Below are positions 191 to 5,972 of a stretch of DNA of 55,930 bases, in pieces; the stretch's first letter is position 1; every line of letters starts with the position of its first letter. Position numbers and translations under genes: made by a program. The notes under the pieces were generated by a model. The model ran no database searches, had not been told where the DNA came from, and was given only the letters and a program-made list of their open reading frames with translations. The DNA is from Alphaproteobacteria bacterium (lineage in GTDB: Bacteria > Pseudomonadota > Alphaproteobacteria > Bin65), in the NCBI GenBank assembly GCA_021776685.1, contig JAJFFJ010000093.1, positions 1 to 55,930 on the forward strand, given 5' to 3'.

Positions 191-997
191 ATGGTTGGCC
201 CTCCGGGGCTCTCCCTTTCCGATCTGACCTGGCCCGAAGCGCGGGACCGTTTTCAGGATGGCGCCGTGGCGCTGATCCCTATAGGTGCGGCGGCCAAGGA
301 ACATGGGCCGCACCTGCCGCTCGACACCGACGCACGGGTGGCGCGGGCGCTGGCGGCCGGGGTCATGGCGCGGCTGCCGGTGGTGGTCACGCCTGTCCTC
401 ACCTATGGCTACTATCCGGCCTTCCGCGATTGGCCAGGCAGCACCCATCTTTCGGCCTCGACCTTGCAGGCCTTGGTGACCGAGGTGGCGGAAAGCCTGG
501 TCCGGCACGGCGTGACCCGGATCGCGGTGCTGAACACCGGCGTCTCCACCGAGGCGCCGCTGCAACTGGTCTCCCGCCACATGCGCGAGGCGCACCGGGT
601 CAAAATGGCGGTGGCGGACATCCGCAGCCTCGGCCGCAGCGCCGACCCGCTGCTCGAACAGAGCAGCGGCGGTCATGCGGACGAGCGCGAGACCTCGCTG
701 ATGATGGCGATCGCGCCGGAGACGGTGCGCCTGGACCGGACGCCTGCAGAAGCGGTGGCCGACGCAGATGCATCGCCACCGCCGTCAAACCCGTTCCATT
801 GGCCCGTCACCCTGCGTCCGGACGTGCCGGAAGACGACCCCTTCGGCGCCCGCGACCTGAGCCCCAGTGGCGCTACAGGCGCGCCGGCGCTGGCTACCCG
901 GGAGAAGGGCAGGGCGATTTTCGAAGCCATGGTGGGCGATCTGGTGGACGGGCTGCGTGCGAGCTTCCCGGATGCGTTCCCGACCGGGGCTGCGTAG
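191..997 (+). CDS. Creatininase-family amidohydrolase with altered metal site
   Basis: This 268-residue protein has the creatininase/MftE fold signature: an EHGPHLPL-D motif near residues 37-46 and GHADERETS near 161-169, which supply metal ligands (E37, H39, D46, E167 by family analogy). Family members are cytoplasmic metal-dependent amidases acting on cyclic or linear amides such as creatinine. The usual NGHGGN motif is replaced here by LNTGVST (about 114-120), so the histidine that normally binds the first metal is absent. Catalysis by the standard mechanism is therefore doubtful. The ATG at 191 was chosen because homology starts about ten residues later; the frame is open further upstream without recognisable sequence. 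The substrate is unknown. Confidence 0.8.
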   Translation: MVGPPGLSLSDLTWPEARDRFQDGAVALIPIGAAAKEHGPHLPLDTDARVARALAAGVMARLPVVVTPVLTYGYYPAFRDWPGSTHLSASTLQALVTEVAESLVRHGVTRIAVLNTGVSTEAPLQLVSRHMREAHRVKMAVADIRSLGRSADPLLEQSSGGHADERETSLMMAIAPETVRLDRTPAEAVADADASPPPSNPFHWPVTLRPDVPEDDPFGARDLSPSGATGAPALATREKGRAIFEAMVGDLVDGLRASFPDAFPTGAA

Positions 998-1027
998 GCA
1001 ATAGAGAGCCGAAACAGGAGTGTGCTG

Positions 1028-1342
1028 ATGAGACGTTGCCTTGCGTTCTTTCTTGTGGGCTTTGCCCTGCTGGCCGCCGCGCCGGCCGGGGCAGAGCAGG
1101 TCTATGTGGTCAAATATGCCAGCCGGGCCGACAAGCGCGTCTTCGTGGTGCGCTATGCCAGCCGGGCGGATTGTGTGGTCTGGCGCGCGCCCTATGCCAG
1201 CCGGGCGCAGGGCCGGTCGAAGTGGTTCTTCGTCTCCTACGCCAGCCGCGCGACCATGAGGGTTTTCTACGTCAAGTACGCGAGCCGCGCGAACCTGAAG
1301 GTCTTCTTCACGCCCTACGCCAGCCGCGCCCGCTGCCGCTAG
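1028..1342 (+). CDS. Secreted YASRA-repeat protein (DUF6150/Septknot-like)
   Basis: A 104-residue protein starting at ATG 1028, seven bases after an AGGAG ribosome site (1016-1020). Residues 1-23 are a Sec signal peptide ending AGA. The mature part is almost entirely a tandem repeat: six YASRA cores spaced about 13-18 residues apart, each preceded by a beta-strand-like pattern of the type V-F-x-V-x-Y. The layout closely resembles DUF6150 proteins (repeats of the form VYFVKYKSQAD), which I recall being renamed Septknot for a deeply knotted predicted fold. Family membership is inferred from this pattern only. Its stop overlaps the stop of the convergent gene by 4 bp. No function is known; a small exported structural or binding protein fits. 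Confidence 0.75.
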   Translation: MRRCLAFFLVGFALLAAAPAGAEQVYVVKYASRADKRVFVVRYASRADCVVWRAPYASRAQGRSKWFFVSYASRATMRVFYVKYASRANLKVFFTPYASRARCR

Positions 1343-1938
1343 TAGTGACGGCGGGGTGTGCGGCGGCCAATCCCGTGACGGCTGCGGACATGGCGGGGTG
1401 CTGTGCGATGGACCGGCCTTGTTTGCTTGCGAGTAACCCGGCGGCGGTCGACGCCGATACGGGTCTGTGCCGCAACCCGGAACGTGCGGGCGTCCACAGC
1501 CAGGCGATAGCGGAAGTGCCCCCGGCTGGCGGTCACCACATACCAGCCACCGGCACAGCGGGCGTAGCCCTTGAGTCCGGCGATTGGCTTGATCCGGCGA
1601 GGCGTGAAGCGAAGCACGTGCAGTTTGCGGTAGCCGCGGCGCGCCAGGCTCCGCTTCGCCCGCGACCAGGACCGGATGCCACTGACTGTCTTGCAGCGAT
1701 ATCCCGTCGCCTTGCCGGCCGTGGCGTCCTGGACGGAGACCATCTGCAGGCCATTGCCGGCTTGGGACGTGGGGGTCGGTTCGGTCTTACGGGCAACCTC
1801 CTGTCTAGCGGCGGGCCAGCTGTTCAGGACGGCGTCCAGGTCATTGATGCTGGTGGTGGTGGCGAACGCGGACCCGGCTGTTGCCAGGAAGGCGCCCAGG
1901 GCGCCGGCAACCACGGTTCGGGTCAGGTTCGCGCTCAT
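1339..1938 (-). CDS. Basic secreted protein of unknown function
   Basis: A 199-residue protein. The start at 1938 is preceded by an AAGGAC ribosome site and opens directly into a Sec signal peptide cleaved near GSAFA-TT (about residue 26). A Ser/Thr/Ala-rich linker follows. A central region (about 85-150) is patterned like small PepSY-type modules: a helix rich in Arg/Ala (AKRSLARRGYRKL) and beta strands with two cysteines (YRCK and YARCAGGWYVV). The tail is extremely Arg/His-rich. A periplasmic or surface location and electrostatic binding are inferred; the family has no name I recognise. CTGAAC repeats about 100 bp upstream may control it. The gene converges on the YASRA-repeat gene with a 4-bp overlap. 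Confidence 0.7.
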   Translation of the reverse strand: MSANLTRTVVAGALGAFLATAGSAFATTTSINDLDAVLNSWPAARQEVARKTEPTPTSQAGNGLQMVSVQDATAGKATGYRCKTVSGIRSWSRAKRSLARRGYRKLHVLRFTPRRIKPIAGLKGYARCAGGWYVVTASRGHFRYRLAVDARTFRVAAQTRIGVDRRRVTRKQTRPVHRTAPRHVRSRHGIGRRTPRRHY

Positions 1939-2240
1939 GGGATTGTCCTTTTTGTCTTCGGGGCCCGGGTGGGCCTGATTGATGTTGGAGCGGACCATGT
2001 CACAGGCTGCCTGAACCGGGTCTGAGATGGCGGTTCAGGCGCGGTTCAGGTTGCCCCGCCGGTGCATCATTCTGGTTCCATCACCGCCTGTGAGCGCGAT
2101 CACAGACCGGGTGGGGAACGGGTGATAAGATGTCTTCAACAACATCACGAACCAACCCGCCCGGCTCCAGGCCCGATCCAGATTTTCTGGGTTCCGGCCG
2201 GCCGGGCTTTTTCGTGACCCCTCTGGGCTCGCGACGCCTG
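1939..2240. other. Intergenic region upstream of the basic secreted protein
   Basis: About 300 bases without a convincing gene. The half nearest 1938 holds the leader and CTGAAC repeat cluster described separately. Positions 2150-2215 carry complementary GCCCGGC/GCCGGGC segments and a run of Ts at 2208-2212 on the plus strand. This could be a weak terminator, but no plus-strand gene precedes it. Confidence 0.5.
2011..2052 (-). promoter_or_regulatory. CTGAAC direct-repeat cluster, candidate response-regulator site
   Basis: On the minus strand two copies of CTGAACCG lie 11 bp apart (2031-2052). A third copy in the opposite orientation (2011-2018) is followed 11 bp later by a CTGAGA half-match. 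Direct hexamers at 11-bp spacing are typical of OmpR/PhoB-type response-regulator operators. The cluster lies about 75-115 bp upstream of the start at 1938. A similar element precedes the secreted-protein gene at 21628. Confidence 0.45.
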
Positions 2241-3237: not shown

Positions 3238-5034
3238 ATGACTTCCACATCCAACATGGCTCACGGCCTCGCAAACATGCGTGGTCTGGCCTCCGGAGCT
3301 GCGATCACCGCCCTTCTGGTCGCTGCCTGTGGCCAGGCCGACCAGAAAGGCGGCGTTACCGGCTCCACCGGCGTCAAGCAACCGGTAACCGGCAAGACTG
3401 TTGCCGGCTCCCGAGAGGAAGAGGCCCGCAGGAATCGTGCGGACAGCACCAATCCGCGAAAGGTGAGAAAACCGTCGCTGCGCTACACCATCGGCCGACA
3501 AAAGCGGGAACGGCCGGCAACCCGTCCCGGACCGGACCGGGACCGCTATCAGAAGATCAACGACAATCCGATTCGCATTGCTGCTGAAAATCCGGTTTCG
3601 ACCTTCAGCGTGGATGTTGATACCGGGGCCTACGCCAATGTCCGCCGCCACCTGCGGGCGGGTCGGTTGCCACCGGCTGACGCCGTGCGCATCGAGGAGC
3701 TGGTGAATTATTTCCCCTATTCCTATGCGGGGCCCGCCAATCGCACCCGGCCTTTCGCGGTCCATACGGCGGTCATGAAGACGCCCTGGAACAAGGCGAG
3801 CTATCTCGTCCGCATTGGCATCAAGGGCTACGACATCAAGCGCTCGGAACGGCCGGCGGCCAACCTTGTGTTTCTGGTAGACGTCTCCGGCTCCATGCAC
3901 AGCCGGAACAAACTGCCCCTGGTGATCGCATCGCTGAAGATGCTGACCCAGCAGCTAAAGGCCCGGGACCGCATCTCGCTGGTCGTCTATGCCGGCCGCA
4001 CAGCTGTGGTGCTGGAGCCGACCCCCGGCAATCAGAAAGGCGCCATCATCGCCGCGCTTGAGCGGTTGAAGGCAGGTGGGTCCACCGCCGGGGCCTCTGG
4101 CCTCAAGCTCGCCTACGCCATGGCCCAGAAGGGCTTCATCAAGGGTGGCATCAACCGCGTGATCCTGGCGACGGACGGTGATTTCAACGTCGGCGTTACC
4201 AACATCCGCGCCCTCAAGGACATCGTCATTCGCCACCGCAAGACCGGCATCACGCTGACCACCCTGGGCTACGGCCACGGCAACTATAATGAGCACCTGA
4301 TGGAGCAGGTGGCCAATGTGGGCAATGGCAACTACGCCTATATCGACAGCGTCGACGAAGCCCGCAAGGTTCTGGTTCAGGAGATGAGCTCGACCCTCTT
4401 CACCATCGCCAAGGACGTGAAGATCCAGGTGGAATTCAATCCCCGCGTGGTCGCCGAATACCGGCTGATCGGCTATGTGAACCGCAAGCTGCGCCGGGAA
4501 GACTTCCGCAACGACAAGGTGGACGCCGGCGATATTGGCGCCGGGCATACCGTCACCGCGATCTATGAGGTCACCCTGGTCGGCGGCAAGGGCAACCGCA
4601 TCCGTCCCCTGCGCTATGGCGCCAAGACGCCGGCGGGCGACGCCAAGGCAGCCGAATTTGCCCATCTGCGTCTCCGCTACAAGCTGCCGAATGAAAGCCG
4701 CAGCAAGTTGATCGAAACGCCGTTGCAGACAGCGGCACTTAAAGCGGCGGACAAGCTGACGGCCGATGCTGCCGGCAACGACTCTTCAGATGCATCTGCC
4801 AGTAGTGCAGGCGGTCAGGCGAGGGCGGACTTCCGGTTCTCCGTGGCCGTGGCCGCATGGGGCCAGTTGCTGCGTGGCGGCCGCTACACCAGCGGTTTCA
4901 GCCATGCGGATATCATCAAGCTGGCGCGCAGCGGGTTTGGTGCCGATCCCCATGGGTATCGCCGTGCCTTCGTGCGTCTGGTGGAAATTTCCCAGAGCCT
5001 GACGCCGAAGAAGGTGTCGACCGTAAAGCAGTAA
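3238..5034 (+). CDS. VWA-domain lipoprotein of the YfbK type (von_Willebrand plus DUF3520)
   Basis: A 598-residue protein starting at ATG 3238 after a GAGAGAGG ribosome site. The N-terminus has a hydrophobic stretch ending in the lipobox LVAAC (Cys31), so it is probably an outer- or inner-membrane lipoprotein facing the periplasm. A basic linker is followed by the family's N-terminal domain (from about residue 117, motif ENPVSTFSVDVDTG). The VWA domain has an intact metal-ion-dependent adhesion site (D215-x-S-x-S, later T and D in ATDGD). The C-terminal third matches the DUF3520 region. Family members resemble E. coli YfbK; they bind divalent metal and probably protein partners, and their cellular role is unsettled. 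The last 119 bp overlap the convergent terminase-like gene. Confidence 0.88.
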   Translation: MTSTSNMAHGLANMRGLASGAAITALLVAACGQADQKGGVTGSTGVKQPVTGKTVAGSREEEARRNRADSTNPRKVRKPSLRYTIGRQKRERPATRPGPDRDRYQKINDNPIRIAAENPVSTFSVDVDTGAYANVRRHLRAGRLPPADAVRIEELVNYFPYSYAGPANRTRPFAVHTAVMKTPWNKASYLVRIGIKGYDIKRSERPAANLVFLVDVSGSMHSRNKLPLVIASLKMLTQQLKARDRISLVVYAGRTAVVLEPTPGNQKGAIIAALERLKAGGSTAGASGLKLAYAMAQKGFIKGGINRVILATDGDFNVGVTNIRALKDIVIRHRKTGITLTTLGYGHGNYNEHLMEQVANVGNGNYAYIDSVDEARKVLVQEMSSTLFTIAKDVKIQVEFNPRVVAEYRLIGYVNRKLRREDFRNDKVDAGDIGAGHTVTAIYEVTLVGGKGNRIRPLRYGAKTPAGDAKAAEFAHLRLRYKLPNESRSKLIETPLQTAALKAADKLTADAAGNDSSDASASSAGGQARADFRFSVAVAAWGQLLRGGRYTSGFSHADIIKLARSGFGADPHGYRRAFVRLVEISQSLTPKKVSTVKQ

Positions 5035-5872
5035 CCGCTGTTCCGATCGCTGCAGGCGTCTTGTGCGCCTGTGTGACGGTTTCCTGAGGCGTGGCCGCCG
5101 CAGCTTCTGACGAGGCTTGCGGCGGTTCGTCTTTCGGGACCGAAGAAATATCCGGATGTGGGGTTTTGTGGGGGAATGTGGGGGCGCCAGTGCCGGTGGC
5201 AATGCCAGTGCCCGTGCCGGTTTCGGCGTAAGCGTCTGCATCAGTTTCGGCGGCGCCAGGTGCGCCCCACAATTCAGGCCCGGCTTCCATGCCGGCCATC
5301 GCCGGCACATCGGGATGGCTGTCCTCTAGCGCATCCTGAAGCATGCCGGGCGGCCAATCGGCATGGAGCGCCAGCCACCCGTCCCCATCGATGCTGTCGT
5401 CGAGACCGTCGTCCAGGCTGTCTCTCCTTGCTGGCGGCGGCTGCACCTGCCGGGGTGGCCGGTCGAGACCGGCAATACGGGCCATCTGCGCCAGCGCTCG
5501 GATCATGGTGTTTGGCATTTGCTGGTGCAGCGCCATCTCCATCGCCGCGTTCAACATTTGCAGCAGATAGGTCGCCTCGTCCCGGCGGGCAGCGTGCCGG
5601 TCGGCGGCGAGGTCGCGGATCCGCTGGCGAATGCGGGTGTCCTTCAGATTATCACGGGCGGCGTAGCGGGCACTGTCGACCGCATAGCCGGCGCGCTGCG
5701 CGGCCTCCGCGCCATTGGCGCAATCAACATAATGCGCTGCGAACGCAGCCTGGCGCGCGGACAAAGCGGCCGGGCGCACCCGCAGTTGAGCGTCGGGGCG
5801 AGTCTCGAAGGCGGGGCCATGGGTTGACGGTTCCGCGATTTCTTCCGGTGACAGGCTGGCGAGGGGCGACAT
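4916..5872 (-). CDS. Orphan terminase small-subunit-like DNA-binding protein
   Basis: A 318-residue protein; ATG 5872 follows an AGGAG site by seven bases, and an in-frame TTG lies two codons upstream. Residues about 38-95 match the phage terminase small subunit (Terminase_2) helix-turn-helix: LSARQAAFAAHYV, then AEAAQRAGY, then a helix ending IRQRIRDL. In phages this domain recognises the packaging site. Here no large terminase, portal or other phage gene is nearby, so the gene is an orphan and may serve as a host regulator. The C-terminal half is low-complexity (Asp/Ala/Gly/Thr, including a TGTGTG run) and weakly conserved-looking. Its 3' end overlaps the VWA gene by 119 bp, so the true stop deserves care. 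Confidence 0.65.
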   Translation of the reverse strand: MSPLASLSPEEIAEPSTHGPAFETRPDAQLRVRPAALSARQAAFAAHYVDCANGAEAAQRAGYAVDSARYAARDNLKDTRIRQRIRDLAADRHAARRDEATYLLQMLNAAMEMALHQQMPNTMIRALAQMARIAGLDRPPRQVQPPPARRDSLDDGLDDSIDGDGWLALHADWPPGMLQDALEDSHPDVPAMAGMEAGPELWGAPGAAETDADAYAETGTGTGIATGTGAPTFPHKTPHPDISSVPKDEPPQASSEAAAATPQETVTQAHKTPAAIGTAVTALRSTPSSASGSGKFPPDARRHGDTHGDRHQTRCAPA

Positions 5873-5972
5873 GTGCAAGCTCCTGGTAATAAGAAATAAA
5901 TCGGATATAGGGATTTAATCACATTTTTACAAGACCGTGGACCGACAGTTTGTGGTGTGTTATATTTTTACC

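Follow-up and report, generated by a model that had tools for sequence, protein, structure and literature searches.

A putatively exported six-repeat DUF6150 protein whose predicted fold matches that of a protein with a 7_1 knot

What is a small, apparently secreted protein that consists of little more than one five-residue motif repeated six times, and could its chain be knotted? One gene in the window (the whole stretch of 55,930 nucleotides analysed here) raises this question. An earlier note on the same DNA had described six YASRA cores behind a signal peptide, spaced about 13–18 residues apart, and had likened the layout to the DUF6150 or "Septknot" proteins, some of which it linked to a 7_1 knot. 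The open reading frame, read from its ATG start to its TAG stop (1340–1342, + strand), contains exactly six copies of YASRA, starting at residues 30, 43, 56, 71, 84, and 97, after a putative signal peptide, MRRCLAFFLVGFALLAAAPAGA, followed by E (Table 1); the description of the repeats was therefore correct. Their spacing is regular as claimed, but the range is narrower than had been stated (13, 13, 15, 13, and 13 residues, i.e., 13–15). The six repeats take up nearly all of the mature protein, and six identical 5-mers were not produced in any of 20,000 shuffles of its residues, the maximum among the shuffles being four.

Table 1. Positions in the window of the DUF6150 gene, its parts, and the two adjoining genes.
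Feature	Coordinates	Strand	Evidence
DUF6150 gene, whole ORF including stop, 104 aa	1028..1342	+	Pfam PF19647 match; dN/dS
AGGAG, likely ribosome-binding site, 7 bases ahead of the ATG	1016..1020	+	read in sequence
Sec-type signal peptide, residues 1–22, predicted cleavage AGA/E	1028..1093	+	sequence and heuristic
Mature domain, six strand-plus-turn repeats (predicted)	1094..1339	+	AlphaFold2
YASRA core 1	1115..1129	+	sequence
YASRA core 2	1154..1168	+	sequence
YASRA core 3	1193..1207	+	sequence
YASRA core 4	1238..1252	+	sequence
YASRA core 5	1277..1291	+	sequence
YASRA core 6	1316..1330	+	sequence
Cys49, first of the lineage-specific pair, directly after core 2	1172..1174	+	co-occurrence
Trp66, invariant in all 67 aligned sequences, in the longer linker of repeats 3/4	1223..1225	+	alignment
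Cys103, second of the pair, directly after core 6, adjoining the C-terminus	1334..1336	+	co-occurrence
Creatininase-family gene, 30 bases upstream, same strand	191–997	+	Pfam, E 5.8e-56
Orphan with likely signal peptide, no Pfam match, downstream, convergent	1339–1998	-	Pfam scan

The 15-codon repeat units of the gene share only 42–64% DNA identity with one another, indicating that the repeats are old and do not stem from a fresh DNA duplication; the gene itself is present as a single copy in its own genome. Codon choice in the window copy hints at an origin from two three-repeat halves, with TAT..CGG in repeats 1–3 and TAC..CGC in repeats 4–6. This 3+3 origin was dropped, as, across the family, repeats i and i+3 do not resemble each other most.

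Does the protein belong to a known family? A search against Pfam-A returned PF19647 (DUF6150) with an E-value of 1.4e-8 and 35 bits, above the curated gathering cut-off of 27, over residues 20–96, and so confirmed the suggested resemblance; NCBIfam gave no match. The window protein is thus a genuine member of this family, which is known but uncharacterised. The family's Pfam name is DUF6150, the literature searched did not contain the name "Septknot", and a search for DUF6150 or Septknot returned no paper, "septoil knot" leading only to a materials paper. Scanning bacterial genomes with a small profile built from four members yielded 72 relatives, mostly from Polynucleobacter and other Burkholderiaceae, with many from Bacteroidota and single ones from Myxococcota, Chlorobiota, and Neomarinimicrobiota. 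All 47 members of a first alignment matched DUF6150, and in an alignment of 67 sequences A26, W45, and Y50 (model numbering) are invariant and 14 further columns are at least 90% conserved. The window protein shares with the family the six repeats and the conserved aromatic, alanine, and Trp positions. It differs in having a cysteine pair, in being the most basic of the 67 proteins compared (mature net charge +15, pI 10.8), and in carrying R at the fourth core position of all six repeats, where the family has Q, E, or D.

The closest intact relative, from a Hyphomicrobiales MAG (L011), is 69% identical in the mature part and has the SRA cores, both cysteines, and a signal peptide, as does the window copy. 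It differs in core 3 (SQA), core 6 (GRA), net charge (+10), and neighbouring genes. Between the two copies, dN is 0.26 and dS is 1.87 (dN/dS about 0.14), which indicates purifying selection on the window gene. Three further findings concern copy and repeat number. A decayed relative from the same class (L003/L008, G017:C100:23979-24188) has one stop, in repeat 1, and lacks exactly one 13-residue repeat, a loss suggestive of recombination among the repeats. Another protein (L082:3899-4156, 86 aa, intact signal peptide) has four repeats, and is either a natural test of repeat number against topology or an assembly artefact. In the Bacteroidota search, two diverged exported paralogues (L117 and L121, G913:C2) were found in tandem, about 0.7 kb apart.

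Export had been put forward as a feature that sets this copy apart. This did not hold: by our signal-peptide heuristic, 71 of 73 aligned sequences pass, the other two failing only for want of a basic residue, and the signal peptide is kept in relatives from several phyla. By the same heuristic, the window protein is predicted to be Sec-exported. Members that are not exported also occur, as no signal peptide is evident in relatives L115 and L006. A further relative (L119:985-1701, - strand) lacks both the signal peptide and the Trp loop; its DUF6150 domain has five repeats, would be cytosolic, and is followed by a Ser-rich linker, then by a membrane segment, and lastly by an SH3-like domain.

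The RA core had likewise been called distinctive. The arginine is indeed present in all six cores, but the SRA form is shared with L011, which reads RRQRRR at the fourth position (R in five of six cores). Across the family, the core residues are the same in all six repeats within a protein and differ between lineages: SRA in the window copy, SEA/SDA in Polynucleobacter, SQA or NQA in most Bacteroidota, and YQA in L076 and L078–L081. The summed charge at the fourth position accordingly runs from +6 in the window copy and +5 in L011 through about 0 in Bacteroidota to between -5 and -6 in the Polynucleobacter group. A tree from which the core columns had been left out requires 13 or more changes of the core label in total; most of its forks are weak, and the starred branches force fewer changes. 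Could gene conversion keep the cores alike? Codons of shared core residues match at 0.50 compared with 0.45 expected from codon usage (strand control, 0.48 vs. 0.45), barely above expectation. Gene conversion was therefore rejected as the family-wide cause, and uniformity would be maintained mainly by selection at the protein level. In the window copy alone, synonymous codons match at 0.57 against 0.34 expected, so that local gene conversion is possible there. Four copies on phage-like contigs (L085:2947-3264, L087:2947-3264, L084:2660-3037, and L010:2971-3306) have mixed cores, unlike the uniform cellular copies.

We then turn to the fold. AlphaFold2 modelled the mature window protein from 67 sequences with a pLDDT of 94.7 and a pTM of 0.83 (84.4 with the signal peptide included and 47 sequences). 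Two of the five mature-protein models are confident, with pLDDT values of 94.7, 94.4, 67.6, 46.3, and 45.7. The model has six strands, with a one-turn HHH segment at each core between them, and we consider it highly probable that the DUF6150 fold is as modelled. When the model was compared with 350,542 PDB chains by Foldseek, the top four matches were all chains of Q9PR55 (E 2e-3 to 4e-2 and 3e-3 to 2e-1 in two runs; best match E 2e-3 to 3e-3, probability 0.96–0.97), and nothing else was found below E 1. A viral structure library likewise gave nothing below E 1. When the Foldseek candidates were aligned with VIA-align, Q9PR55 gave a Z of 6.8 with 61 residues superposed at 2.0 Å (model 1–82 on chain 24–84) and, in another run, a Z of 7.0 with 64 residues at 2.4 Å; no other protein among these candidates reached Z of at least 2. 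Both Z values are below the level of 8 at which the tool is comfortable. About 21 model residues lie outside the aligned 61 or 64 as insertions, and the most natural reading of the model is the same order of six repeats as in Q9PR55 with turns longer by about 21 residues in total. PDB sequence searches with single sequences and with profiles (47 members; 20 diverse members) gave no match to 8IWA at E-values up to 10.

Q9PR55, a Ureaplasma protein (PDB 8IWA, 8IWB, and 8JRM), is thus the sole convincing PDB match, and the predicted model aligns across its knotted core. A 7_1 knot with a core at residues 27–83 was predicted for it by Brems and colleagues (PMC9278004) and verified by crystallography (PMC13352647; PMC11223836), and with seven crossings it is the record-holding knot. 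The structure prediction therefore bears out the expected resemblance to a 7_1-knotted protein, to the extent of a confident fold that matches this protein only. Neither of the two outcomes that the note had named as refuting its reading, a failed profile search or a model showing an ordinary unknotted repeat, was observed. Q9PR55 has no detectable sequence similarity to the window protein, which, in contrast to it, is an exported precursor with a cysteine pair. Its homologue P73136 has a 5_1 knot, so that a homologous pair differs in knot type (PMC9278004); P73136 is placed in the same fold group through its published relation to Q9PR55. Backbone knots and conserved cysteine pairs also occur in the Knotted Solenoid proteins, a group of small beta repeat proteins from bacteria, but their topology is 3_1 (PMC13123833) and they were absent from our fold search results.

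Is the window protein itself knotted? The knot is inferred from the fold match to Q9PR55, and we regard a knotted chain as likely; against it, AlphaFold is reported to disregard topological barriers (PMC10672856). The six strand-and-turn repeats of the mature chain would form a small toroid whose knot would be of the torus type, either 7_1 or 5_1. The alternative, an ordinary strand-and-turn protein of six repeats that has no knot and resembles Q9PR55 merely locally, seems unlikely to us. It would account for the poor Foldseek superposition (TM 0.30–0.40, with 0.35–0.37 in the second run; rmsd about 10 Å), the modest VIA-align Z, and the missing sequence link, but the 61 residues aligned at 2.0 Å span the model from end to end and all of the knotted core of Q9PR55, and the fold comparison brought up no competing match to an unknotted solenoid or any other repeat protein. 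A knot in this chain would be shallow, as the mature ends extend just a few residues past the aligned core.

Could the cysteines hold such a knot closed? Among the 67 aligned sequences, Cys49 and Cys103 are both present in 29, both absent from 38, and never found singly. The branch that bears them comprises Pseudomonadota and one Myxococcota MAG, and its proteins end right after the second cysteine; most members of the branch without them extend about ten residues further at the C-terminus. We take a Cys49–Cys103 disulfide to be reasonably likely, albeit a little less so than the knot. The strict co-occurrence is indirect evidence for it; against it stands the report that the conserved cysteine pairs of the Knotted Solenoid proteins form no disulfides (PMC13123833). 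Such a bond would hold the C-terminal end in place, replacing the roughly ten-residue tail of the cysteine-less Bacteroidota members. As the ends would barely pass the knotted core, a disulfide at Cys103 would keep a shallow knot from slipping open, and the strictly paired cysteines may thus fasten the knot shut outside the cytoplasm.

What might a ring of six arginines do? We propose that the six turns would act as one unit that displays a ring of identical residues, here arginines, and that a sturdy, small, ring-like protein of this kind would bind an anionic polymer by avidity through them. The six arginines, together with the strongly positive mature charge, suggest that the protein might bind a polyanion multivalently, for example lipopolysaccharide, extracellular nucleic acid, or an acidic polysaccharide. 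The reversal of the charge of the six-fold position in relatives counts against this ligand; polyanion binding is possibly correct, as a guess from the charge and from six positions that evolve as one, and the broader multivalent surface-binding role is held tentatively. An ice-binding threonine ladder, suggested by the Polynucleobacter sequences, was discarded, since the window copy has no such ladder. With equally tentative standing, the cores could co-vary by packing as a ladder inside the fold, with no binding surface, the role of the protein lying elsewhere, for example in the Trp66 loop or on the strands. The core position that holds a small polar residue (S, N, or Y) does switch in all six repeats, as stacking predicts, and the tryptophan never varies; on the other hand, the fourth position holds Q, R, or E/D; charged residues there are unlikely to be buried six-fold, and the charge is reversed between lineages.

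Two further explanations concern the gene rather than the fold. Within its own class, DUF6150 was found in only 2 of 385 genomes, compared with 4 of 398 in its own phylum, none of ten same-family genomes, and 17 of 296 in Bacteroidota, the phylum of a Gelidibacter genome. Rarity in the class, together with the other class member, in which a stop interrupts the frame and one repeat is missing, would fit a decaying, functionless remnant. We give this next to no credence, as the window copy is intact, with a ribosome-binding site and the low dN/dS described above, which largely refutes it. The same patchy distribution could reflect a mobile moron derived from phages, for instance a surface-altering or phage-excluding cargo gene, captured by scattered bacteria. 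In keeping with this, exported copies are present on phage-like IMG/VR contigs (L007, L010, L084, and L085–L087), some of them adjoining clamp-loader, exonuclease, DNA ligase, and glycosyltransferase genes. Furthermore, the neighbours are not conserved: a Pfam scan of 86 proteins around 33 relatives revealed no gene common across lineages, and the families that do recur come from near relatives. A phage origin is nevertheless improbable in our judgement. Searches of 50,697 annotated phages and 72,556 plasmids with four different family members gave no match, the family has a long-term vertical presence in Polynucleobacter, and the window copy sits directly behind the creatininase gene and ahead of the convergent orphan, in no phage or prophage.

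Some details of the surroundings were also recorded. The stop codons of the DUF6150 gene and the orphan overlap by 4 bp. At 3238–5034 (+) lies a gene for a von Willebrand factor A protein of the YfbK type, whose N-terminus carries a lipoprotein-like signal (LLVAACG), and an open reading frame with a small-terminase domain (PF03592, E 1e-11) is present at 4919–5878 (-) in a stretch that is otherwise cellular.

Taken as a whole, an exported DUF6150 protein that is probably a knotted toroid, held by a disulfide and binding a polyanion through a ring of arginines, is our best explanation, to which we assign a probability of about 0.5. Sec export would carry the chain unfolded across the inner membrane, so that the knot would be tied in the periplasm, without the ribosome or cytosolic chaperones. 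Export, knotting, and disulfide fastening draw on the fold match and on conserved features. A bolder reading, about which we are more doubtful than confident, is that the protein represents the first branch to be recognised as exported within the most complex protein knot found in nature: translocated unfolded, tied into a 7_1-type knot outside the cytoplasm, fastened by a lineage-specific C-terminal disulfide, and bearing six turns that evolve as one unit (+6, 0, -6).

This reading bears on whether deep or complex knots need cytosolic help to form. If it is true, a Sec-exported member of the 7_1 fold would have to knot in the periplasm, and its disulfide would make the knotted state easy to control by redox. 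The natural variants of the family, with or without the cysteine pair, with four to six repeats, and with S, N, Y, or R in the core, provide a comparison set for how such a knot folds and what purpose it serves.
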